Shown here one piece after another: positions 3,692 through 20,883 of a DNA stretch of 20,883 bases (positions are counted from its first letter, which is position 1; every line of letters starts with the position of its first letter). Source of the DNA: a virus; the IMG/VR virus record IMGVR_UViG_3300004460_001808, positions 1 through 20,883 of that record; one strand, given 5' to 3'. A program made the translations under genes and the position numbers. The notes under the pieces were generated by a model. That model worked only from the letters and a program-made list of their open reading frames with translations. It did not search any database and was not told the DNA's origin.

Positions 3692-4200
3692 TATACGAGT
3701 GTTAGTGCAAGTTCTGTAGTTTCTACTACACGTCTTGTCCAACCTTTACCAAATGTAGCAAATGTGCTTAACGATTTATAGTATTCTTGTCTACGCTTTT
3801 GATATTCTTTTACGGATGCTTCTATGCCATTCTCTGCAACATATTCAGCAACCTTCTTTAATGTATTAGGTCCGATGCCACCATCTGCAACTGTGCCAAT
3901 CATTGTTTGCAAATATTTGGCCGCTCTTCCTGGGCCTGCATTTACACCAAAGTCGAATACACATAAATCTAATCCACCTGGCAAATCATCACCTTTCATT
4001 TTGTCCCAATAATTCTTTTTATAAATTGGAGCAACATCTTCAACCAATAAGTCTTTCATGTCTTTGTCGCCGCCCCATTCTTCGTAAACTCTTTTCGTAA
4101 CACCCAAGTTAGTTTCACCACCTGGATCTTTAGGATGATTTACGTATCCACCCTCGTGGTGTAATATTGTTTCTAAACATTTTTGATAGTTTGATTGCAC
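3691..4200 (-). CDS. Endolysin, GH108-type lysozyme with peptidoglycan-binding domain
   Basis: 169 residues. The N-terminus carries the GH108 signature HHEGGYVNHPKDPGGETNLG (14-33), in which Glu16 is the expected catalytic acid. The C-terminal half (about 75-165; LPGGLDLCVFDFGVNAGPGRA) matches the peptidoglycan-binding domain paired with GH108. There is no signal peptide or membrane helix, so export should need a holin. The start is GTG at 4200, backed by an AGGAG SD (4206-4210), and it overlaps the upstream stop as TAGTG. It is the first gene of the lysis cassette, followed directly by both spanin genes. Confidence 0.92.
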   Translation of the reverse strand: MQSNYQKCLETILHHEGGYVNHPKDPGGETNLGVTKRVYEEWGGDKDMKDLLVEDVAPIYKKNYWDKMKGDDLPGGLDLCVFDFGVNAGPGRAAKYLQTMIGTVADGGIGPNTLKKVAEYVAENGIEASVKEYQKRRQEYYKSLSTFATFGKGWTRRVVETTELALTLV

Positions 4201-4916
4201 TATAACTCCTCTGATTTTAGTATAATGTTCTTATCTTCTTTGGATATTTTAAACATGTCGTCTACTTTCACTATTTTATAAACATGTCCCAACCAATTGT
4301 TAAGATACTGAGATTGTGATGTTGATGATTCATCTATTCTGTAAACACCATTAACATCTTTTGATGGTACATTTATTCCTTCAATAATAAATTCATGTTT
4401 ATTATAGAGTGTTTTGAGTGTTAATCTTTTGCCGTTTCTTATCACAGTGGCTTTTGACTCATTGAACACTGTGTTTATGTCATCATCTATTTTGTCATCT
4501 GTCAAAAACTTATACTGTTCAGGTGAAGTTGGTACAATATTCTGTAAGTTTTGTTCATCTAGATGATAGAAAGATTCATTTTTATGAAATCTAAATTTCC
4601 AAGGCAACAATCCTGTAACTTGTTCTGCATCTCTTACTAGTTTTATTATATTAGATGGCAGTTCATCGTTGCGTTCTAGTTCAACAAATACATTATATCT
4701 TTTTTGTGTGTTTTTAGCAGGTGAATAATCTGCATCAAGCACATAATCGTGTCCTGATTCTATAAATTGTACAAGATCACTTGCAACATCTTTATTGTCT
4801 GATTGAAATTGTACGACAGAAACATCTTCGTCTCGGCCCAACTTTGCCTGGAATGCGTCAATGACTACTTCATTGCTTACATGATTTGCCATCTCTAAAT
4901 TTATTATTGATTTCAT
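4200..4916 (-). CDS. Conserved phage protein of unknown function (238 aa)
   Basis: I do not recognise a named family. The protein is soluble, acidic and rich in Asp, Asn and Ile, with no membrane helix or signal. It has a charged middle (KNTQKRYNVFVELERNDE) and a mixed alpha/beta pattern. Its ATG overlaps the stop of the 158-aa gene as ATGA, and its stop overlaps the endolysin GTG, so it lies in one operon with both. A second in-frame ATG at 4892 (MANHVSNEVVIDAF) could be the true start. The place between a likely structural gene and lysis genes suggests late expression; a virion or assembly role is only a guess. Confidence 0.8.
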   Translation of the reverse strand: MKSIINLEMANHVSNEVVIDAFQAKLGRDEDVSVVQFQSDNKDVASDLVQFIESGHDYVLDADYSPAKNTQKRYNVFVELERNDELPSNIIKLVRDAEQVTGLLPWKFRFHKNESFYHLDEQNLQNIVPTSPEQYKFLTDDKIDDDINTVFNESKATVIRNGKRLTLKTLYNKHEFIIEGINVPSKDVNGVYRIDESSTSQSQYLNNWLGHVYKIVKVDDMFKISKEDKNIILKSEEL

Positions 4917-7886: not shown

Positions 7887-8096
7887 TTACTCCTTAAAGT
7901 ATTTTTCTAACATTGCAATTTGGTCATCATACATTGCAACAATATTAAGTTCTTTTTCTATTGCTTCTAAAACGTCAGCGGAGTTCTCACTACTAACACC
8001 TACTGCATTTTGTAGATATATTTCCACATTCATCTTGTGTTTTGCAATGTGTCCTTTTGCATGTTCTATCATTGCACTTCTTATATGACTTCTCAT
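7887..8096 (-). CDS. Conserved 69-aa helical phage protein
   Basis: 69 residues, predicted almost all helical (EHAKGHIAKHKMNVEIYLQN, VLEAIEKELNIVAMYDDQI), with no membrane segment or signal. I recognise it only as a small protein recurring in marine T4-like phages; the function is unknown. It has a strong AAGGAG SD (8105-8110) inside the end of the DnaE-like gene and overlaps its stop as ATGA. It lies in the replication block that leads to gp44. Confidence 0.8.
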   Translation of the reverse strand: MRSHIRSAMIEHAKGHIAKHKMNVEIYLQNAVGVSSENSADVLEAIEKELNIVAMYDDQIAMLEKYFKE

Positions 8097-8623
8097 CTTA
8101 AAAACTCCTTGTAATTTAAATTGTATTTAATGGGGTCGATATGGTGTACCCCTATCAAATAGAGAACCAAACTTGAAACTGATGATCCTCTACCTACACC
8201 TGTAACAATGTCGTTTTCATTAACAACTTTTACCATGTAACACATGAATCTTAGTATATCCATCATGTCACGTTTAGCAAACTCGTGAAGTTCATCTTCA
8301 AGTATGGCTTGATATCTTGCATCTACTAATCCAAGTGTTTCTAATTTGTTTCTGCAGATGTAGTGTACGTCTAAATTTTTATATTCATCAGGCATTTGCC
8401 AATCGCTGGATAAAAGTTTATGATACTCAATAGGATCCATATCTGGCATACTCGGTGTTGTAAGTTTAGCAATATCAAAATGTTTGCAGTATTGTGAATG
8501 TTTCTTTATTTCTTCATCTTCATACACAAATGTTGTACCGATATCATAAGAGGGGTCTGCATACAAGTTGTTTAATACATCTTGTTGAGAAAGATACACC
8601 TGTCCATATTCGTCAACAGTCAT
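8093..8623 (-). CDS. Truncated DnaE-like protein (DNA polymerase III alpha fragment)
   Basis: 176 residues. The C-terminal third aligns by eye with bacterial DNA polymerase III alpha just before its active site: residues 106-141 (ILEDELHEFAKRDMMDILRF and on) match the helical lead-in, TGVGRGSSVSSLVLYLIGVH (141-160) matches 'VGPGRGSxAGSLVAYxLGIT', and HIDPIKYNLNYKEFLR (161-176) matches 'DIDPLxFxLLFERFLN'. The protein stops exactly there, before the PDFDID catalytic aspartates, so it cannot polymerise by itself. The following sequence does not continue the domain in another frame. The AAGGAGG SD (8630-8636) is strong and the gene is ATGA-coupled at both ends, so this looks like a stable gene, not debris. 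Similar short proteins occur in other marine T4-like phages, as I recall. The function is unknown; a binding role near gp44 is possible. Confidence 0.75.
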   Translation of the reverse strand: MTVDEYGQVYLSQQDVLNNLYADPSYDIGTTFVYEDEEIKKHSQYCKHFDIAKLTTPSMPDMDPIEYHKLLSSDWQMPDEYKNLDVHYICRNKLETLGLVDARYQAILEDELHEFAKRDMMDILRFMCYMVKVVNENDIVTGVGRGSSVSSLVLYLIGVHHIDPIKYNLNYKEFLR

Positions 8624-9189
8624 TGTAATCCTCCTTTAATAACTTGTAATTTTCTATCATCATTTATTGTAAAACCTATTTCGTCCCATGTCAAGTCATC
8701 TTTAAAAAAACTACAAAAACTTGGCAATTCAGTCTTCCACCATGGATTATCTATGTCCCGTTCGAGGTCTTGTAAAATTTCCCATTCTGGCGATTCTGTT
8801 CCTATGGTGTATCTTATATTTTCACCTTGCCAGGATTCAATCTCTAATGCTTCTACTTTTAAAAATTCTCCTCCTATAGAATTCAATTTAGAAAATATTT
8901 GCACGCCTACTAATTGATCATATGGATCGGAAACAAAATCAATAACATCGTTCCTGTAATGATTTAATTGTTGATAGGTTTTTTTATCGTGTTTGATAAA
9001 GATAGCATTTTGAAATACTTTGTTAAACAGATATTTGTATTTGTCATAGGTTAAATTTTGCACAGCAGGATTATCAGTCTGTGGCACAAAGACAATGTTT
9101 ACTTCATAATCGTTGGGCCAAAGTTTGTTATTAAGTAGAATTGTGTTTGTAAATCTTGTTTTCCAAGACATTCCGTCTTCAATCAACAT
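8620..9189 (-). CDS. Hypothetical phage protein (189 aa)
   Basis: I do not recognise this protein. It is soluble, rich in aromatic, Asn and Asp residues, with no signal or membrane helix. Readable segments are NDYEVNIVFVPQTDNPAVQN, KNAIFIKHDKKTY-like basic stretches and FCSFFKDDLTWDEIGF. The pattern suggests an alpha/beta globular fold. The first ATG (9189) overlaps the upstream gene by 11 bases; a second one at 9171 (MSWKTRF) follows GACGGA and may be the true start. Its stop is coupled by ATGA to the DnaE-like gene, so it belongs to the replication block. Confidence 0.75.
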   Translation of the reverse strand: MLIEDGMSWKTRFTNTILLNNKLWPNDYEVNIVFVPQTDNPAVQNLTYDKYKYLFNKVFQNAIFIKHDKKTYQQLNHYRNDVIDFVSDPYDQLVGVQIFSKLNSIGGEFLKVEALEIESWQGENIRYTIGTESPEWEILQDLERDIDNPWWKTELPSFCSFFKDDLTWDEIGFTINDDRKLQVIKGGLQ

Positions 9190-9418
9190 TTATTAATCCG
9201 TCTAATTCGGAATCGGTTTTAGACTGTTCTTTATTTGCTTTCTTTATTGCTCTTTCTGATTTTTCCAACTGCAAATTTTCATTCATGGCTATCAGTTGAT
9301 TGTACAATTCTAAATGATTCATTCTTCTTGCTTGATTAATTTTTATTGTAACATCATTTATCTTTGATTCCAACTCTGGATCAGACAGCCCTTTGGGGTC
9401 ATAAGTGGGATGAAACAT
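9179..9418 (-). CDS. Small charged helical protein (79 aa)
   Basis: 79 residues, mostly helical and charged (DPELESKINDVTIKINQARR, NENLQLEKSERAIKKANKEQ), ending in an acidic tail. It looks like a short coiled coil; no family was recognised. The ATG at 9418 lies 4 bases after the stop of the fibre-like gene, and its end overlaps the next gene by 11 bases. No SD or late box is visible, so translation probably depends on the upstream gene. Confidence 0.7.
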   Translation of the reverse strand: MFHPTYDPKGLSDPELESKINDVTIKINQARRMNHLELYNQLIAMNENLQLEKSERAIKKANKEQSKTDSELDGLINVD

Positions 9419-9422
9419 TTAA

Positions 9423-10004
9423 TTAGGATGGATATTCGAGCACTTGACTCATGAACTTTGTAGTTCCGCCATCAACTGAAAACACATCAAAAACAAAAAC
9501 GCCAACTCTTTCAGAGAAGTCTGCACTTACTGTTGACGAATCTGACAAAGAAACCAGTTCATTTGGTCTTTTAATACCAGTAAGGGTGACTGTGTGCGTG
9601 GATACGCCTTTTGTAAGTATTATTCGCATTGAAGCATATACATTTGTTGATGCATCATCTTCTAATGGAAAATTTGTAAATGTTAAAGTAGTATTACCAC
9701 TGGTTGTTAGTGTTGTAACATTACCATCTGCAAAACTACAAGCAACACTGCCTGAAACTGAACCTTTTGCTACAATTTTTTGTCCAAAATCTTTTAGTAC
9801 TAGTTGTGATTGGTCATTGCCATTAAAGTTAGTGTCAGCATTTGTTACCGCACTGTTAGTTTGGAGTGATGTAATCTCAGTTGCCGCAGTTGCTAATTGT
9901 GTGTTAATCTGTGTAAAATTGGTTCTAAAACCCTGTGAATCATTATCTTGTCCTGCGACAGGAAATGTTGCGTCTATTTGTGATGTTGATATATTACTTG
10001 CCAT
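9423..10004 (-). CDS. Virion fibre-like structural protein (193 aa)
   Basis: 193 residues, low in charge and rich in Thr, Ser, Asn and Val. The N-terminus FPVAGQDNDSQGFRTNFTQI (14-33) is typical of structural proteins in marine T4-like phages. It resembles the 'DGTGDPLRTAFDKINDNF' start of the repeat fibre at 16080-17819, which suggests a shared attachment segment. A helical heptad-like part follows (INTQLATAATEITSLQT, 33-49), then a beta-rich C-terminal domain. An AATAAATA late box ends 7 bases before the ATG, with no SD. It is probably part of the neck, whisker or tail fibres; the exact site is unknown. Confidence 0.75.
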   Translation of the reverse strand: MASNISTSQIDATFPVAGQDNDSQGFRTNFTQINTQLATAATEITSLQTNSAVTNADTNFNGNDQSQLVLKDFGQKIVAKGSVSGSVACSFADGNVTTLTTSGNTTLTFTNFPLEDDASTNVYASMRIILTKGVSTHTVTLTGIKRPNELVSLSDSSTVSADFSERVGVFVFDVFSVDGGTTKFMSQVLEYPS

Positions 10005-10011
10005 TGCGTTG

Positions 10012-10019
10012 TATTTATT
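10012..10019 (-). promoter_or_regulatory. T4-type late promoter box (AATAAATA)
   Basis: The minus strand reads AATAAATA, then CAACGCA and the ATG at 10004. The box overlaps the stop codon of the upstream He_PIG gene (10018-10020). It would start a near-leaderless late transcript for the 193-aa gene and the following block. Confidence 0.6.
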
Positions 10020-11496
10020 AAGTTGTTCTCAGTAGTTCACGCTGTTTTGATACATGTGTAATTCTATCTGTGATCGAACTTCTTTGCATCACTATTGCTT
10101 GTTCTTCAACATCTTTACGATCAAATGTTACCAATTCATTTGAGAAAGATGTTCCAGAGTCATCAAAAGTGGTTAGATATGATGTGCTAGAATCTGAATC
10201 AAACACAGTGGTAAGTGATTTACCAAACGTAGTCTTATTGAGTGTGATCACAATAGCAGTGCCTGTTATAGGTGCTGTGTTAAACTCTAATTGTAAACCA
10301 TTAAGACTTATATCTGCAGAAATATCGGCGGTAGATACAAATATATCTGTAGTATCTGCAGAGTCATTTGCCACAAAATCTGTAGTTGCCACACCACCCA
10401 ATGTGACAGACAACGAACTTGATCGATTTACATTGTAAGGAATAGAAAATATTTTGGTAGACCCGTCACCTGTATGTGTAGACACATAAGGCCCCTGATC
10501 AAATGCTGTTGCTAGGTATCGATCAATATACCATCTATCAATATTGCACGGTAATGATTGTATATTATATGTAGATTCATTTTTCAGTCTATACAAAGTT
10601 TTAGCACCTTCACCAGGTTTTAGATATCTAATTACTAAAGCAATCTTGTGTCCTAATACCAATCCATCGCTTTGTGGTGATTTCATCCACAGTGGCAAAT
10701 ATTCAAAATTTTCTATAGTAAGTCCTGCTTTAACTTCATCTTGCATTCTAGTAATTACGTTGAGATATAAATCGCTGATTTCTGAATTCGAAATAGGAAT
10801 GTTACTATCTGTTAAAATCTTTGATGTGCCTGCTGTTAGATCTACTGTGATAGAAGGAAGATTTACATCAGTAAGAGTAATTTTATTTGGGCCACCTGCT
10901 TTAGGATCAATTAGATCAACATATACAACTTCATATAACACAGTGCCATCAGGTGCTTTTGCTTCTGCTAGTTTGTATTCTCCCATATAGAGTGTTGTGT
11001 TGTAATTGTTGTTCACCAATAGTGCAGAAACGGTTGATAAGAAAGTCGCATGTACTCCAGCCAAGAATAAAAATTTTGGTCGATTTGTGTTAAAATTTGG
11101 ATCAGAAGGTCTAAACAGCGAAGTAGTAGGGAACAATGATCTGCTGTTTACAAAATTTTGATATGCTGTAAGTGTATTTTGATCAGTATGCAATTTGCCA
11201 TACATGTTAGCAATTTGATCAGTGGTTGGCACTTTGACTCTAATCGAATAATCCTGTGTGACTGTTATATTACCAAAAGAACCAGATGCTTCTACCTTGA
11301 ATGTAAAATTAGTTTCTGTGTTGACATCGCCACATATGCCAATTATCTCTCCATCTGCCTGAATTTTTAGCCCTGGAGGTAAACTTCCTGATTTATATGA
11401 GTAAGTCAATGTGGTGTTAGATATGCTACTCACTGCTCCAACTTTAAACAAAGATACTTTCCCTGGTGTTATAGATCCTAAACTAATTGTTGTCAT
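10018..11496 (-). CDS. Large virion structural protein with one N-terminal He_PIG Ig-like domain
   Basis: 492 residues. Residues 1-90 form a He_PIG-type Ig domain (SGSLPPGLKIQADGEIIGICG, 37-57). A central region (about 95-330; FLFLAGVHATFLSTVSALLV, YKLAEAKAPDGTVLYEVVYV) has no family that I know. Near 345-430 lies a beta domain (THTGDGSTKIFSIPYNVNRS) of the type common in phage fibres and baseplate proteins. The ATG overlaps the stop of the preceding gene as TAATG. That gene is built of the same kind of Ig repeats, so the two products probably act together on the virion. The function is inferred from composition and neighbours. Confidence 0.75.
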   Translation of the reverse strand: MTTISLGSITPGKVSLFKVGAVSSISNTTLTYSYKSGSLPPGLKIQADGEIIGICGDVNTETNFTFKVEASGSFGNITVTQDYSIRVKVPTTDQIANMYGKLHTDQNTLTAYQNFVNSRSLFPTTSLFRPSDPNFNTNRPKFLFLAGVHATFLSTVSALLVNNNYNTTLYMGEYKLAEAKAPDGTVLYEVVYVDLIDPKAGGPNKITLTDVNLPSITVDLTAGTSKILTDSNIPISNSEISDLYLNVITRMQDEVKAGLTIENFEYLPLWMKSPQSDGLVLGHKIALVIRYLKPGEGAKTLYRLKNESTYNIQSLPCNIDRWYIDRYLATAFDQGPYVSTHTGDGSTKIFSIPYNVNRSSSLSVTLGGVATTDFVANDSADTTDIFVSTADISADISLNGLQLEFNTAPITGTAIVITLNKTTFGKSLTTVFDSDSSTSYLTTFDDSGTSFSNELVTFDRKDVEEQAIVMQRSSITDRITHVSKQRELLRTT

Positions 11497-12611
11497 TATA
11501 AAACCAACTCTCTATCGACAGCATTCCATGTCACTGAACTAAATGCACTGCCTAATACCACAATGTTGAATTCGCGATCAACTGTTTGATCCACAAACAG
11601 TGGAGATGATTTAGTTACTCTCACAGTAAATGTAAACTTTGTTTCTGCAGGAGTAAAACTAGTCAATGAACCATACACTTCGCCAGTCGCAGTATCCAAA
11701 ATCATGCCTGTTGGCAATTCACTTACTGTGCTGTCTGCATTTTCAGTAAGCAGTTCATAAGTCAATGTAGTGGCACCCGCGGCTCCAAGAGCGTCGTCAG
11801 GATCGACTACATCAATGTTAACAATTTGATAATTTTCATGTGTAATTCTTGCTAGTTCGCCTGCTGGTTGTACAAAATGCATTGGTCTTACATCGCTTTC
11901 GTCTGCTGTAACCAATGTGTTGTCCGCAGAAGTTTGATCTGTATCTGTTTTTTTATTTGATGTACCTCGCACGTCTATAGTGAACACTCTATCTGAATGA
12001 CTTACGCCGTCTGACACCCTAACAGTAAATCCATACAGTCTATCAATTGAACCTGTACGCACTATATGATCAAAATAGTAAGTATCCCAGGCCTGAACAT
12101 CCCATCCTAAGTTAGTTGAATCAAAATTACTTTCCGCCACAGGCAAAATCAATCCTGATAATTTTCCTGATTTAGTATCCAGCGTGACATCTTCTGGCAA
12201 TTCACCTGATATAATTTTGTAAAATTTTATATCATTGTCTGCGTCTGACGCCTGCAGTTGATAATCAAAAAATTCACCATCTTGTATTATTCCTAAACTT
12301 CCTGCAGATGTTGACCATGTTGGAGCATCTGATCCTAGCACAAAAAGTTTAAATGTTCGATCCACACTGTTTACACCGTCAGTGACTCGGACAACAAATT
12401 GTTTTTCTGTGCGTCTTGCAACTTCGTCTGGCGTTCCACTAATTACTCCGTTGGTAGCAAGAGTAAGTCCATCAGGTAATGCACCTGCTACAACAGTATA
12501 TGTCAGTGTGTCGTTGTCAGAATCTGTGGCTGATAGTGTTAAAGAGTATGCAACTCCTTCGTCTATTTCAGCAATAGTTCCAGCCGCTGTTATCCAGATA
12601 GGTATAGCCAT
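11496..12611 (-). CDS. Virion protein of three He_PIG/cadherin-like Ig repeats
   Basis: 371 residues made of three Ig-like repeats: about 5-93 (GALPDGLTLATNGVISGTPD, VRVTDGVNSVDRTFKLFVLG), about 94-214 (GELPEDVTLDTKSGKLSG, VRVSDGVSHSDRVFTIDVRG) and about 240-360 (ELPTGMILDTATGEVYGSL, DREFNIVVLG). Each shows the He_PIG pattern 'LPxGLxLDxxTGxISGxP'. There is no signal peptide, which fits a virion part and not a secreted one. Such repeats often serve as surface binding modules in phages. An AATAAATA box ends 6 bases before the ATG and there is no SD. It is coupled by TAATG to the next He_PIG gene. Confidence 0.82.
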   Translation of the reverse strand: MAIPIWITAAGTIAEIDEGVAYSLTLSATDSDNDTLTYTVVAGALPDGLTLATNGVISGTPDEVARRTEKQFVVRVTDGVNSVDRTFKLFVLGSDAPTWSTSAGSLGIIQDGEFFDYQLQASDADNDIKFYKIISGELPEDVTLDTKSGKLSGLILPVAESNFDSTNLGWDVQAWDTYYFDHIVRTGSIDRLYGFTVRVSDGVSHSDRVFTIDVRGTSNKKTDTDQTSADNTLVTADESDVRPMHFVQPAGELARITHENYQIVNIDVVDPDDALGAAGATTLTYELLTENADSTVSELPTGMILDTATGEVYGSLTSFTPAETKFTFTVRVTKSSPLFVDQTVDREFNIVVLGSAFSSVTWNAVDRELVL

Positions 12612-12635: not shown

Positions 12636-13034
12636 TTATTCAGAAGTGTCAGATTTTTTGCGTACGCCAGCACATTTCTCACGCACTGTGGCAAATTCTT
12701 CGCCTAATTCTAACTCTTTGTATTTGCCACACATTTTAAGCATTTCAAGTTCCTGTTTCAGTCTTTCATTCTGCAACATGATATCCTTATATTCTTTGGT
12801 GCAAGTACCGCCAAAACTGTAACTGTAACGCAATCCTATCCTGCCGCTATCGCCTCTACTGTTATTACTACTTGAATTATCATACAGTTGTTCCTGCAGA
12901 TTATATTCCATGTAAGGCTCTAACCTATGATTATTACAATGATTGCCACCATTTAAATAATCGTTTTGTGCTTGGGCAGGCTTGATAATCCATGCTACAA
13001 GGACAATTGCTAATATGATTATGCCTCTGCCCAT
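12636..13034 (-). CDS. Exported Cys-containing protein with signal peptide (132 aa)
   Basis: A Sec signal peptide is clear: MGRG, a hydrophobic core IIILAIVLVAWII, then PAQA with likely cleavage before QN at about residue 23. The mature protein has an Asn/Ser-rich part, a short beta-like stretch GRIGLRYSYSFGGTC (65-79), a helical coiled-coil-like segment (KDIMLQNERLKQELEMLK) and a charged tail. It has four Cys residues in the mature part, which could form disulphides in the periplasm. No known family was recognised. It follows the coiled-coil membrane gene by 3 bases. Exported proteins are unusual among virion genes; a periplasmic or envelope role in the infected cell, or a late envelope change, is possible. 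Confidence 0.75.
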   Translation of the reverse strand: MGRGIIILAIVLVAWIIKPAQAQNDYLNGGNHCNNHRLEPYMEYNLQEQLYDNSSSNNSRGDSGRIGLRYSYSFGGTCTKEYKDIMLQNERLKQELEMLKMCGKYKELELGEEFATVREKCAGVRKKSDTSE

Positions 13035-13037
13035 GTA

Positions 13038-13484
13038 TTAGTACCCACCGGCTTTGATATCTTTGATGTCATATTCCACCTGTCTGATTGAATCCTGTAA
13101 TTTGTAGTAACTATCTTCCAATGCTCTTAATTCTTTTTCTGAAGCACCATCATCTGCAAGTTTATAATAACTGTTATTCAATGCCTTTAATTCTGCTTCT
13201 AATGAACTGATTCTTGTGACAAGACTAACTGTTTCTCTCATCATTTCTTCTCTGGCTTCTTGATACATGATAGTTAATGTTGCATCTTTTGATGAGAATT
13301 TATCATCAAGGTTATTAATATCTTTGAACACAGCCATTTCAATTGTGTTTTCCATTTCACTGATTGCAATGCTATGATTTTCGATGGTTTGATTCAATTT
13401 TGAAACCACTGTCACTCCAGTGTATAAAGAACCTATTACTGCCAGTCCGATCGGAACCCATGTGATCACTTGTGTAATTTTCAT
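13038..13484 (-). CDS. Membrane-anchored coiled-coil protein (148 aa)
   Basis: One N-terminal transmembrane helix at about 8-29 (TWVPIGLAVIGSLYTGVTVV) is followed by a long coiled coil (about 30-142). An internal repeat is visible: ALNNSYYKLADD (104-115) and ALEDSYYKLQDS (121-132). Most of the protein would lie in the periplasm or cytoplasm; the topology is not clear from the sequence. It resembles an i-spanin in outline, but it is far from the endolysin and next to an exported protein. A TTTAAATA box ends 7 bases before the ATG. The function is unknown; the pair with the exported gene may form an envelope complex. Confidence 0.75.
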   Translation of the reverse strand: MKITQVITWVPIGLAVIGSLYTGVTVVSKLNQTIENHSIAISEMENTIEMAVFKDINNLDDKFSSKDATLTIMYQEAREEMMRETVSLVTRISSLEAELKALNNSYYKLADDGASEKELRALEDSYYKLQDSIRQVEYDIKDIKAGGY

Positions 13485-17875: not shown

Positions 17876-18157
17876 ATGTTCATAGAACAAACAACAAAAA
17901 TCCACTTGCATCAAAGAGAAAGCAAGTTAGGCAAAGTGCATAACTTCAAGCGTAAACGAACAATTTACCATTTTCGCTGTGACTGTTGCGAAAAACAATT
18001 TGTGCGTGACAAGAGCAAAGTCTCGCCCACAAGAGCAACTAATAATTTTCATCATGTGTGTGCTGATTGTGATCCTTATGTGTTTGCACAAAAAATTGGT
18101 GTGAAAATGCGTAAGGTATGGCAAATGGATGCCAGTTCCACTGAAATAAAACTTTAG
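17876..18157 (+). CDS. Small zinc-ribbon protein (93 aa)
   Basis: 93 residues, basic. Cysteines at CDCC (35-38) and CADC (62-65), with His nearby (NNFHHVC), look like a zinc-binding ribbon of the kind seen in small phage DNA-binding or HNH-related proteins; no HNH active site can be read. The opening half (KIHLHQRESKLGKVHNFKRK) is basic and could touch nucleic acid. It is one of two plus-strand genes and lies between the two paralogous fibre genes. It has a perfect late box but no clear SD. Its stop interlocks with the stop of the fibre on the other strand (18154-18157). The function is unknown; a nuclease or regulator is possible. Confidence 0.78.
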   Translation: MFIEQTTKIHLHQRESKLGKVHNFKRKRTIYHFRCDCCEKQFVRDKSKVSPTRATNNFHHVCADCDPYVFAQKIGVKMRKVWQMDASSTEIKL

Positions 18158-19131
18158 GCGATGTCTGTAGTATCTGCTCTGAGTGGCACCCAGGCATCGT
18201 TTTCGTATGCTTCTATTCTAGAAGTTGATGTGTTATAGATTAACATTCCATTAATAGCAGTTAAGGCATCTCGTGCTGTTGTGTCTAAGGAAGGAAGCAC
18301 AAATGCATTGTTATTGATTAACAGTTGCCCATTTATGTTAACTGCGTCATTGATCTGGATTGCAGTCGAATCTCCTGATGAAATTTGATTTGTATCAAGT
18401 GTGTCAACACTTAGTGCACCTGATATGTTAACTGCATCATTGATTTGGATTGCTGTGCTGGTTGAAGATGAAATTGAAACCACATCAATGTTGTTGATTT
18501 GTACAGCAGATGAGTCATTGCCTACAATTTCATCTACTTGTAATATGCCTGATATGTTAGTGTTGTCTTCAATGTTTAAAAATGTTGAGCCTTCTGCTTT
18601 CAGTGTTCCGGTGATTAACAGATTATCGTTAATGGTAACACCAGTAGAATCACCAGATGAAATATTTGTAACGTCAATAGTATCGGCACTCAATATACCT
18701 GACACATTTAATCCTTCATTTACTTGAATAGCAGTCGAAGTTGAACTAGAAATTGTATCTACATCTAAAGTTGAAATTTGCACAGCAGTTGAATCATCGG
18801 AAGAAATGTTGTTGGTAATTAATCCGCCAGTTACCCTTAAAGTTTCCTGTACTTCGATCAAAGTTGAATTGTCTGATTTAATTACGTCAACAACCAAATC
18901 TGCATTTACAACTAAATCACCAGTACCGTTTGGATCTAGCGTAATGTCAGCGTTTGTAGATGTTGAACCAATTGTGTTTCCTGTAATATCAATGGCTTTG
19001 CTGGTGGAGTCTAAACCAAAAAAATCATAAAGTTCTTCAAAGTTAGTGTTAACTTTGTTCATTGCTGAACGCAATGTATCTCCAGTGCCTGTGTTTACAC
19101 CTGTACCAATGTTAATGCTTAGACGTCCCAT
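18154..19131 (-). CDS. Second repeat-containing tail fibre-like protein (325 aa)
   Basis: 325 residues, a paralogue of the 579-aa fibre. The N-terminus SINIGTGVNTGTGDTLRSAM (5-24) then NKVNTNFEELY is the same anchor type. Repeats of 18-30 residues run from about 108 to 280 (ISSSTSTAIQINDAVNISG; ISSGDSTAIQINDAVNING). The C-terminus LPSLDTTARDALTAINGMLI then YNTSTSRIEAYENDAWVPL is a widespread phage fibre ending. An AATAAATA box ends 9 bases before the ATG, with no SD. The repeat blocks are close to those of the larger fibre, but the C-terminal tips differ. This suggests two fibres built on one shaft design. The host-binding role is inferred. Confidence 0.85.
   Translation of the reverse strand: MGRLSINIGTGVNTGTGDTLRSAMNKVNTNFEELYDFFGLDSTSKAIDITGNTIGSTSTNADITLDPNGTGDLVVNADLVVDVIKSDNSTLIEVQETLRVTGGLITNNISSDDSTAVQISTLDVDTISSSTSTAIQVNEGLNVSGILSADTIDVTNISSGDSTGVTINDNLLITGTLKAEGSTFLNIEDNTNISGILQVDEIVGNDSSAVQINNIDVVSISSSTSTAIQINDAVNISGALSVDTLDTNQISSGDSTAIQINDAVNINGQLLINNNAFVLPSLDTTARDALTAINGMLIYNTSTSRIEAYENDAWVPLRADTTDIA
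18419..18456 (-). repeat. Fibre repeat segment shared with 16729-16766
   Basis: Matches the segment in the larger fibre gene at 36 of 38 positions. A further, more diverged copy lies in the same gene at about 18334-18366. All code for the repeat QINDAVNI(S/N)G. Confidence 0.85.
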
Positions 19132-19149: not shown

Positions 19150-19467
19150 CTACGTAGAAAAGGAAGTTCCACAACCACAGGATGATTTAGCATTTGGATT
19201 CTCATACGTAAAGTAGGATCCCATGATTTCATCTTTGAAATCTATCTGTACTCCAAGCACAAATAATTCACATTTAGGATCTATCAGTACTTTTACAGGC
19301 CCAAATGCTAGTTCTTGATCGGTTTCTTTCTTCTGATCAGTCACATCAAGGATATAATTGAATCCTGCACATCCTCCTCCTTTTACTCCGAAGCGAATGT
19401 ATGGTTTATTGGCAGACTCCATTACTGACTGCATTTTTGCAATTGCTGGTACTGTAACTTGTATCAT
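19150..19467 (-). CDS. sufA: A-type Fe-S cluster carrier (SufA/IscA/ErpA family)
   Basis: 105 residues, the normal length. All three cluster-ligand cysteines are present: Cys33 in GGGCAGFNY, and Cys97 and Cys99 in SSCGCG near the C-terminus. A-type proteins receive [Fe-S] clusters from a scaffold and pass them to client enzymes. It overlaps the SufT-like gene by ATGA. In many alphaproteobacterial suf operons sufT is also followed by sufA, so the pair could have been taken from a host suf operon as one piece. SufA, IscA and ErpA cannot be told apart by eye. The stop is 19 bases from the fibre start, with a late box in between. Confidence 0.93.
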   Translation of the reverse strand: MIQVTVPAIAKMQSVMESANKPYIRFGVKGGGCAGFNYILDVTDQKKETDQELAFGPVKVLIDPKCELFVLGVQIDFKDEIMGSYFTYENPNAKSSCGCGTSFST

Positions 19468-19760
19468 ATGCCGAGTGCTAGCCTTACATCTTCTGACATC
19501 ATCTCAGGACCAAATGTTGGAGTAAATGTTGTCACGACTTGTACTTCTTCAATGCCTTCTACCATACCTGCATTTTTAATGTCATCTTTGATTTGATCGG
19601 CCGCAGGACACCATGCTGAGGTCAGCGTGTGTGTTATGATTACTTTTGGTTTGATAGAAAGATCTATGTCATATATAAGTCCTAGATCGTAAATGTTCAC
19701 ACTGATTTCAGGATCATGTACCTTCCTTAAATTAGCAATTATGTTTTCTAATTGGCTCAT
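19464..19760 (-). CDS. sufT: SufT/MIP18-family (DUF59) Fe-S maturation protein
   Basis: 98 residues, a single DUF59 domain. Conserved features: DPEISVNIYDLGLIYDI (16-32; family DPEIPVNIxDLGLIY) and LTSAWCP with Cys51 (family TxxxCP). SufT helps in Fe-S protein maturation, mainly under high demand for clusters, and works with carriers such as Nfu and A-type proteins. The C-terminus (TFTPTFGPEMMSEDVRLALG) also fits the family. It is 22 bases downstream of nfu, with a short inverted repeat in the gap, and is coupled by ATGA to sufA. A PaaD-like role is less likely since no phenylacetate genes are near. Confidence 0.92.
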   Translation of the reverse strand: MSQLENIIANLRKVHDPEISVNIYDLGLIYDIDLSIKPKVIITHTLTSAWCPAADQIKDDIKNAGMVEGIEEVQVVTTFTPTFGPEMMSEDVRLALGI

Positions 19761-19782
19761 ACTTGTAATTAGTAAGTTTTGG

Positions 19783-20301
19783 TCACACTAATTTTACAAT
19801 TTGGACTTCAGGAATACGTGAGTGTAGTTTGTTGTACAGTGCACCAAGTGTGGCTTCATGGTTAGGACAACCAAAGCATGATCCTTGCATCTTTACTTCC
19901 ACCACTCCGTTTTTGAATCTTATAAATTTTACATCACCGCCATCTAAATTCACAGCAGGTTGTATTTCCTTTGCAATTATATCTCCAACAGCACAACAAA
20001 TCTCATCGTCACATCCTTCACCGACTGATCCTGATTCAATGTAAAAATCTGTGCCAAGCATTAGTTCTTTCACTTTCATGGTCATATCATTCCAAGACCA
20101 TTGTGAATATTTTGTGATAGTCATGTAGTTGTCTTGAAGCAGTATAAATCTTACTCCTGCTATTCTAAAAATATTTTTTATAAAGTCGTTCGCCTGTTGT
20201 GCAATGTCAATGTCGTAAAATACTGATCCTTCACCTACAATTTTATTGTTGAAAATAAATTTTAAAGCATTAGGATTAGGAGTTGGTTCTGTTGGAAACA
20301 T
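19783..20301 (-). CDS. nfu: Two-domain Nfu Fe-S carrier protein
   Basis: 172 residues in the full two-domain layout of mitochondrial and alphaproteobacterial Nfu. The N-terminal Nfu_N domain begins TPNPNALKFIF (7-17), and the C-terminal NifU-like domain (about 105-172; PAVNLDGGDVKFIRFKNGVV) holds the cluster motif GSCFGCP with Cys142 and Cys145. Nfu carries a [4Fe-4S] cluster, shared between two copies, to target enzymes. Extra cysteines (97, 102, 103; EGCDDEICC) lie in the linker and are unusual. The ATG overlaps the stop of the superoxide dismutase gene as TAATG. No scaffold gene (sufBCD, iscU) is in the window, so the cluster must come from host machinery or from genes outside. Confidence 0.93.
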   Translation of the reverse strand: MFPTEPTPNPNALKFIFNNKIVGEGSVFYDIDIAQQANDFIKNIFRIAGVRFILLQDNYMTITKYSQWSWNDMTMKVKELMLGTDFYIESGSVGEGCDDEICCAVGDIIAKEIQPAVNLDGGDVKFIRFKNGVVEVKMQGSCFGCPNHEATLGALYNKLHSRIPEVQIVKLV

Positions 20302-20883
20302 TAGGCTTCCAACAGTCTCGATTCTAAAAATGCATAGTTGATAATGTCACTCATGAATGTTTCTAAAAACTTTTTACGATCGTTTTTGTAATCCAAATAG
20401 TAAGTGTGTTCCCATACATCCACTGCTAATAATATATCCGTGTCTTCGCCTACAGGATTATCAGCATTAGAATATGTTTTCCATGCCAGTTTTCCATTTT
20501 CCATAATGAGGAAAACCCAACCTGAACCAAATCTTTTCATTCCAGCATCTACAAATTCTGACACAAACTTATCCATAGATTCGAATGAATCTTCAATTTT
20601 CTTCTGCATTGTTTCTGAAGGATCTTGATAGTTGTCTGTCATGCTCTGCCAAAATATAATATGATTAAAATTCTGTGCCGCATTGTTAAAAATACCATCA
20701 TTATTATCACGTGTCGCAACAATGATTTCTTTGAGACTCATGTTTTCATACTCAGTGCCTTTGATCAAATCATTTAGTTTGTCCACATAGGCCTGATGAT
20801 GTTTGCCATAGTGTGTGTCTAGTGTATCTCTGCCCATAAAAGGCTCAAGATCAGTACGACCATATGGCAAGTCCATCAATGTA
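20301..20883 (-). CDS. sodB: Fe-type superoxide dismutase (5' end probably outside the window)
   Basis: About 194 residues visible. It turns superoxide into hydrogen peroxide and oxygen. Metal ligands are all present: His in THYGKHH, His in NFNHIIFW, Asp and His in DVWEH. The Gln of NNAAQ marks the Fe-type. The frame stays open to the right edge and reads T-L-M-D-L-P-Y, like the normal SOD opening, so the true start is probably just beyond 20883; the ATG at 20876 is a possible but less likely start. There is no signal peptide in view, so it should be cytoplasmic. It is the first visible gene of the block with nfu, sufT and sufA, and its stop overlaps the nfu start. Confidence 0.93.
   Translation of the reverse strand, partial: TLMDLPYGRTDLEPFMGRDTLDTHYGKHHQAYVDKLNDLIKGTEYENMSLKEIIVATRDNNDGIFNNAAQNFNHIIFWQSMTDNYQDPSETMQKKIEDSFESMDKFVSEFVDAGMKRFGSGWVFLIMENGKLAWKTYSNADNPVGEDTDILLAVDVWEHTYYLDYKNDRKKFLETFMSDIINYAFLESRLLEA

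Follow-up and report, generated by a model that had tools for sequence, protein, structure and literature searches.

The window analysed here is an entire virus record, a linear sequence of 20,883 bases. Four adjacent genes lie at its end on the minus strand, from position 20882 to position 19150, and encode an Fe-type superoxide dismutase (SOD), Nfu, a short DUF59 (MIP18/SufT-like) protein and an A-type Fe-S carrier. The initial annotation had placed the four genes at these positions, and all of them scored above the Pfam curated cut-offs. The sod stop codon and the nfu start codon overlap as TAATG (20299 to 20303, minus strand), and the carrier start codon and the DUF59 stop codon overlap as ATGA (19464 to 19467, minus strand); between nfu and the DUF59 gene there is a 22-nt gap. 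Both couplings, as first described, were confirmed from the sequence. The same −1 overlap of sod and nfu is found in most relatives, and the −4 spacing of the DUF59 and carrier genes is found in relatives of the window type. Alignments confirmed that the ligand residues are intact in SOD, Nfu, the DUF59 protein and the carrier, again as first described. A late-promoter motif, TATAAATA, was not enriched inside the block over shuffled sequences.

The SOD gene (20301 to 20882, minus strand) has 193 codons present, and its 5′ end is cut by the contig edge. Since the record ends there, the SOD of the window lacks its N-terminus; the full-length protein in relatives has 210 amino acids and starts 17 codons earlier, with MK(I/L)..VADD. 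Both SOD domains were above the Pfam cut-off (Sod_Fe_N and Sod_Fe_C, 87.7 and 102.9 bits), and the metal ligand motifs (His, His, Asp-x-x-His) were invariant in alignment A5. Specificity for Fe rather than Mn is putative. The best NCBIfam score was for the Fe-SOD model PRK10543 (187 bits, below the cut-off of 348 for that model), versus 113 bits for Mn-SOD. The phage protein has an A-x-Gln-x-x-Asn-His type motif, as found in Fe-SOD.

Nfu (19783 to 20301, minus strand) has an Nfu_N domain and a C-terminal NifU domain with a CxxC motif (65 and 62.3 bits, both above the Pfam curated cut-offs). An AlphaFold model (pLDDT, 78.6) matched NFU1/NifU structures in the PDB, including human NFU1. The CxxC cysteines, C142 and C145 (19867 to 19878, minus strand), are the predicted cluster ligands and were invariant in alignment A2. 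Between the two domains, the same alignment revealed an additional C-x4-C-C motif (C97, C102 and C103; 19993 to 20013, minus strand). Phage Nfu proteins occur in two forms, and the window has the one that we call "near." The C-x4-C-C motif was invariant in all eight near-form phage proteins and was present in none of the 58 cellular Nfu proteins sampled; a genome scan by patterns found no cellular relative of the near form.

The 98-aa DUF59 protein (19464 to 19760, minus strand) matched FeS_assembly_P (DUF59, PF01883) with 48.4 bits, above the curated cut-off, and retains the ligand C51. PaaD is a DUF59 protein as well. The 105-aa carrier (19150 to 19467, minus strand) belongs to the SufA/IscA/ErpA superfamily; it matched Fe-S_biosyn (PF01521) with 58.9 bits, above the curated cut-off, and the A-type subfamily model TIGR00049 with 106.1 bits, over a cut-off of 58.8. 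Its cysteine ligands, C33, C97 and C99, were invariant in alignment A1. These two genes were originally named sufT and sufA. The families were correctly recognized, but the names are too specific. The SufT model TIGR02945 (SUF_assoc), with a cut-off of 143.4 bits, gave 96.3 bits for the protein of the window and 125 bits for that of contig L013, which establishes the DUF59 domain alone, and the SufA model TIGR01997 gave 91.1 bits for the carrier, with a cut-off of 136.2. Judged by these scores, "short DUF59 protein" and "A-type carrier" are the safe names.

Directly downstream of the block, and forming the boundary of the locus, is a tail-fibre/baseplate-connector-like gene (18154 to 19131, minus strand; PHROG 677, 6942 and 958) that has the same place in most relatives. 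It is followed, on the opposite strand, by a conserved gene for a 93-aa protein (17876 to 18157, plus strand), which we used as a landmark. The landmark protein has no Pfam match; its two CxxC pairs (C35/C38 and C62/C65; alignment A3) are both invariant and may possibly form a metal site. These direct neighbours raise the idea that the carriers serve not enzymes but a protein of the virion or of the locus (at the tail tip, or the 93-aa protein), which would receive a metal or Fe-S centre from them, and Fe-S tail-tip proteins do exist in lambda-like phages, as indicated by a title cited in PMC8163748. However, the fibre protein adjoining the block in the window contains no cysteine, and metal binding by the 93-aa protein is putative. 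We regard this idea as very improbable.

On the other side of the block, uvdE, encoding the UV endonuclease UvdE, and a small Lys-rich open reading frame (ORF) were found upstream of SOD wherever contigs extend that far and were read. The Lys-rich ORF (49 to 74 aa, with a hydrophobic start) lies just upstream of SOD, with uvdE above it, for example at positions 12920 to 13069 (minus strand) of L046, 15384 to 15608 (minus strand) of L047 and 4125 to 4334 of G002. Several copies have an AT-hook-like RGRPKKK tail.

Elsewhere in the window, Pfam and PHROG matches indicate genes for fibre and baseplate proteins, PhoH, a peptide deformylase, a gp44-type clamp loader and part of a DNA polymerase. The closest matches of the clamp loader (56% identity) and of PhoH (about 50% identity) were in PA5oct, Callisto and Paride, which are jumbo phages of Pseudomonas. 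We concluded that the window is a fragment of a marine myovirus and that, among named phages, Pseudomonas jumbo phages such as PA5oct are closest to it; the source is a real, uncultured phage far from named phages. We also considered a pelagimyophage identity and rejected it, since the clamp loader and PhoH are closest to those of PA5oct-type phages. A DnaE-like polymerase fragment (GRGSSVSSLV) has a small gene to itself, which is accompanied by a conserved partner ORF (8093 to 8623 and 8620 to 9189, minus strand; PHROG 11127 match).

We scanned IMG/VR with SOD and Nfu. Relatives had the full order SOD-nfu-DUF59-carrier beside the same fibre gene, with the exception of L018, which had SOD only. 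For sampling independent of the block, we searched with the 93-aa landmark gene and obtained 26 contigs; several are near-identical, 23 reach the slot of the block, and about 17 are distinct where the slot is covered. The carrier was present in 23 of 23 contigs, DUF59 in 22 of 22, SOD in 22 of 22 (19 Fe-type and 3 Cu/Zn-type) and nfu in 18 of 22. The landmark gene accompanies the block in 23 contigs and is also present in most of the loci with a Cu/Zn SOD and a carrier that are described below. The initial annotation had suggested searching related phages for the same block, and the genes do stay together across relatives, contrary to the refuting outcome named there, in which they would not. 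Its four-gene unit is kept, but not strictly as four genes, since Nfu can be absent and the SOD can be of either type. All relatives that cover the slot show the block with its genes in the same order, save for loss of nfu and exchange of SOD type, and we concluded that it is not a chance arrangement.

Inspection of phage contigs by eye identified several other genes. Genes for a TctA-like membrane protein and a TctC-like binding protein (G001, 9504 to 11596; G002, 8337 to 10480) may encode a phage-borne tricarboxylate-type transporter. G010 has a gene for an OpuAC-like (glycine-betaine-type) periplasmic binding protein (36913 to 37920), and G007 has a partial gene for a curlin-like repeat protein (47239 to 47961). 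Curlin-like repeat proteins have been reported for pelagimyophages.

In three of the landmark contigs (L045, L046 and L049), the Fe-SOD slot is filled by an unrelated Cu/Zn SOD (PF00080; 155.7 bits for the L046 copy, over a cut-off of 28.9), with no obvious signal peptide by eye. These three contigs are without nfu, and their carrier has diverged. A scan for this Cu/Zn SOD identified 76 viral contigs, 45 of which carry an A-type carrier downstream, on the same strand and within 4 kb. Most of these 45 loci have UvdE upstream and the landmark gene alongside; DUF59 is present in 6. For the other 31 of the 76 contigs, no carrier was found within the stretch examined. When 31 Cu/Zn-SOD contigs were searched in full, 20 had a carrier. 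An Nfu-domain ORF (3107 to 3457 of L299) was seen about 0.5 kb upstream of a Cu/Zn SOD, in a different genomic context. The widespread core is the pair of SOD and carrier; Nfu is optional, and so is DUF59 in much of the wider group. Many marine phages thus have a SOD accompanied, at a fixed genomic position, by one to three Fe-S delivery proteins. The occurrence of two unrelated SOD families in the same slot suggests that the pairing itself is under selection.

The locus is not free of disruption: L047 has a 1-kb insertion between carrier and DUF59, L014 has a 2-kb gap before the fibre gene, and in L040 an additional gene separates SOD from the Lys-rich ORF. These insertions, with the loss of nfu from 4 of 22 contigs, would fit a cassette of independently useful genes beside a variable tail-fibre region; its genes would be neighbours because they are transcribed together, rather than because they share a single biochemical function. 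Nevertheless, a SOD persists even where its fold has changed, the carrier is never missing from the slot, and the pairing of the two recurs in the Cu/Zn-SOD contigs. A mere cassette is improbable in our judgement.

We compared the four genes with cellular homologs, sampled mostly from one phylum, in phylogenetic trees. The phage Fe-SODs formed one group relative to the 25 cellular SODs sampled, and a modestly supported branch (81) had all the phage carriers, including the diverged ones, on the same side. The far form of Nfu grouped with alphaproteobacteria, its nearest neighbour being from a Pelagibacteraceae metagenome-assembled genome. DUF59 likewise occurs in two forms. The initial annotation had favoured a host origin of the genes as an alphaproteobacterial sufT-sufA piece. 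This was not borne out, since the phage SODs and carriers stand apart from the cellular sequences sampled and, of the two Nfu forms, just one is placed with alphaproteobacteria; the trees do not support descent of all four genes from one alphaproteobacterial source. Identity between the phage groups is 28% for Nfu and about 42% for DUF59, versus about 70 to 75% for SOD and the carrier. This gap makes a recombination swap of the middle pair, nfu and DUF59, attractive. However, a single clade of both forms was not rejected for either protein (p-AU = 0.776 for Nfu and 0.175 for DUF59), and we did not retain the swap; rapid divergence of nfu and DUF59 is possible instead.

The observation that no scaffold genes are present was correct for the window; as the window is the entire record, it covers only 20.9 kb. 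IscU was not found in the window or in 24 related contigs, and SufB/D was not found in 15. A search of 15 contigs gave no convincing cysteine desulfurase, the single weak Aminotran_5 match being probably a DegT-like aminotransferase, from its position beside uvdE. None of the contigs searched has a complete SUF or ISC system (SufBCD or IscU plus a cysteine desulfurase). As all these records are fragments, the largest of 114.8 kb, the absence of scaffold and desulfurase genes is no more than suggestive. The view of the block as a late-acting Fe-S delivery set with SOD is upheld by the lack of a scaffold or SufB/D in any relative examined.

Radical SAM genes are abundant in the clade of the window, with 5.9 per 100 kb, versus 0.3 in ten reference phages that were chosen by hand. 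At least one is present in each of the 7 non-redundant contigs of the clade over 40 kb, and L013 has 7 in 114.8 kb; the CxxxCxxC motifs of the phage enzymes are intact. Two of the phage radical SAM proteins are encoded at 25909 to 27768 and 49824 to 51350 of G010. Outside this clade, the link between carrier and radical SAM clients is weak. Among Cu/Zn-SOD contigs, radical SAM density was 4.4 per 100 kb with a carrier and 2.35 without, a difference that is not significant (p = 0.49), and a 123-kb contig has a carrier and zero radical SAM genes. A 180-kb contig, G366 (the contig of L315), has 23 radical SAM matches from 3.9 to 51.7 kb, most of them within about 35 kb.

These data bear on a further explanation, namely, general protection of the host from oxidative stress. 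SOD and the carriers would then sustain host respiratory and tricarboxylic acid cycle Fe-S enzymes for the length of a prolonged infection in sunlit water that is poor in iron, UvdE would belong to the same stress-tolerance locus, and the phage radical SAM genes would be incidental. The position of uvdE and the Lys-rich ORF immediately upstream of SOD is consistent with this, as are the many Cu/Zn-SOD contigs of 20 to 60 kb that have a carrier and no radical SAM gene. In contrast, every larger contig of the window's clade carries radical SAM genes, up to the seven in L013. Host protection strikes us as unlikely, though less so than the two explanations considered above.

We lean towards a conserved phage module that pairs removal of superoxide with delivery of finished Fe-S clusters. 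The Isc/Suf machinery of the host would build the clusters. The phage A-type carrier and DUF59 protein, joined by Nfu in most window-type phages, would hand them to oxygen-sensitive Fe-S enzymes during infection, and the adjacent cytosolic SOD would stop superoxide from destroying solvent-exposed [4Fe-4S] clusters. In Staphylococcus aureus, SufT matters at high Fe-S demand, and a sufT mutant is sensitive to paraquat (PMC4982691). The phage proteins may redirect host clusters to chosen clients, for which radical SAM enzymes are the best candidates; in the clade of the window, radical SAM enzymes of the phage itself are probably the principal clients. We infer the flow of clusters, the clients, the benefit and the timing of expression. 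A broader version of the module is tentative and falls somewhat short of being probable: SOD defence and Fe-S delivery would be one selected unit that is widespread, with SOD replaced by an unrelated metalloenzyme, and oxygen-exposed marine phages would run batteries of radical SAM enzymes on host clusters.

Fe-S genes in marine viromes had been noted singly, mostly as an aid to host electron transport. A fixed locus of SOD and carrier, with SOD exchanged, points to a defined problem that the phage solves, namely, how oxygen-sensitive Fe-S enzymes stay alive once the cell is infected. The locus offers an explanation, open to testing, of why these phages have so many radical SAM enzymes, and it ties viral metal use to the availability of iron and copper in the sea.

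Several known systems resemble parts of this locus. The end piece of bacterial SUF operons (DUF59/SufT, then SufA) and S. aureus SufT and Nfu involve the same late-acting families and the same link to oxidative stress and high Fe-S demand (PMC4982691). Unlike in the bacterial operon, SOD is included here, SufB, SufD, IscU and a convincing desulfurase are absent from the contigs searched, and the proteins score below ortholog cut-offs. Other phages also carry SODs: sodB is found in Pseudomonas jumbo phages (Callisto and PA5oct), and SodC is found in the Salmonella prophages Fels-1 and Gifsy-2. Clamp loader and PhoH also make Callisto-type phages the closest named relatives, but the Callisto sodB product is only 28% identical, and its gene has clpS and hsp20 as neighbours, with no Fe-S genes annotated in the vicinity. 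Salmonella prophage SodC is about 33% identical. INPHARED tblastn matches to "phages" named for Staphylococcus, Listeria, Salmonella and Acinetobacter were left out, as they look like host DNA in those records.

Among phage Fe-S genes, nifU-like viral genes have been reported from oxygen-poor waters (PMC8940887 and PMC7785012), and HMO-2011-type phages carry iscU and erpA (PMC9038755). The latter likewise have Fe-S biogenesis genes that include an A-type carrier; they differ in belonging to another phage group and in having the scaffold IscU, and the passage on them names no SOD, DUF59 or Nfu. Nishimura et al. (2017) reported both IscU and A-type carriers from marine viral genomes and suggested that these serve Fe-S proteins of the virus as well as of the host (PMC5332604). 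One marine T4-like genome in that study, TARA_ERS488813_N000010, has 12 radical SAM genes together with an A-type carrier and "paaD"; like the phages described here, it combines a carrier, a DUF59-type gene and radical SAM genes. Some phages in that study carry IscU, whereas none of our contigs do, and its text does not mention the SOD, Nfu, fixed four-gene order or exchange of SOD type that we observed. The word "superoxide" is not mentioned in PMC5332604, PMC8940887 or PMC7785012, and we found no description in the open-access literature searched of a phage SOD with Fe-S genes at such a locus. The linkage to SOD, the presence of Nfu and the exchange of SOD hence appear to be undescribed in the papers covered. 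Phage Fe-S genes were already known; the present findings are new, and strongest, where they show SOD coupled to such genes and one SOD family exchanged for another.
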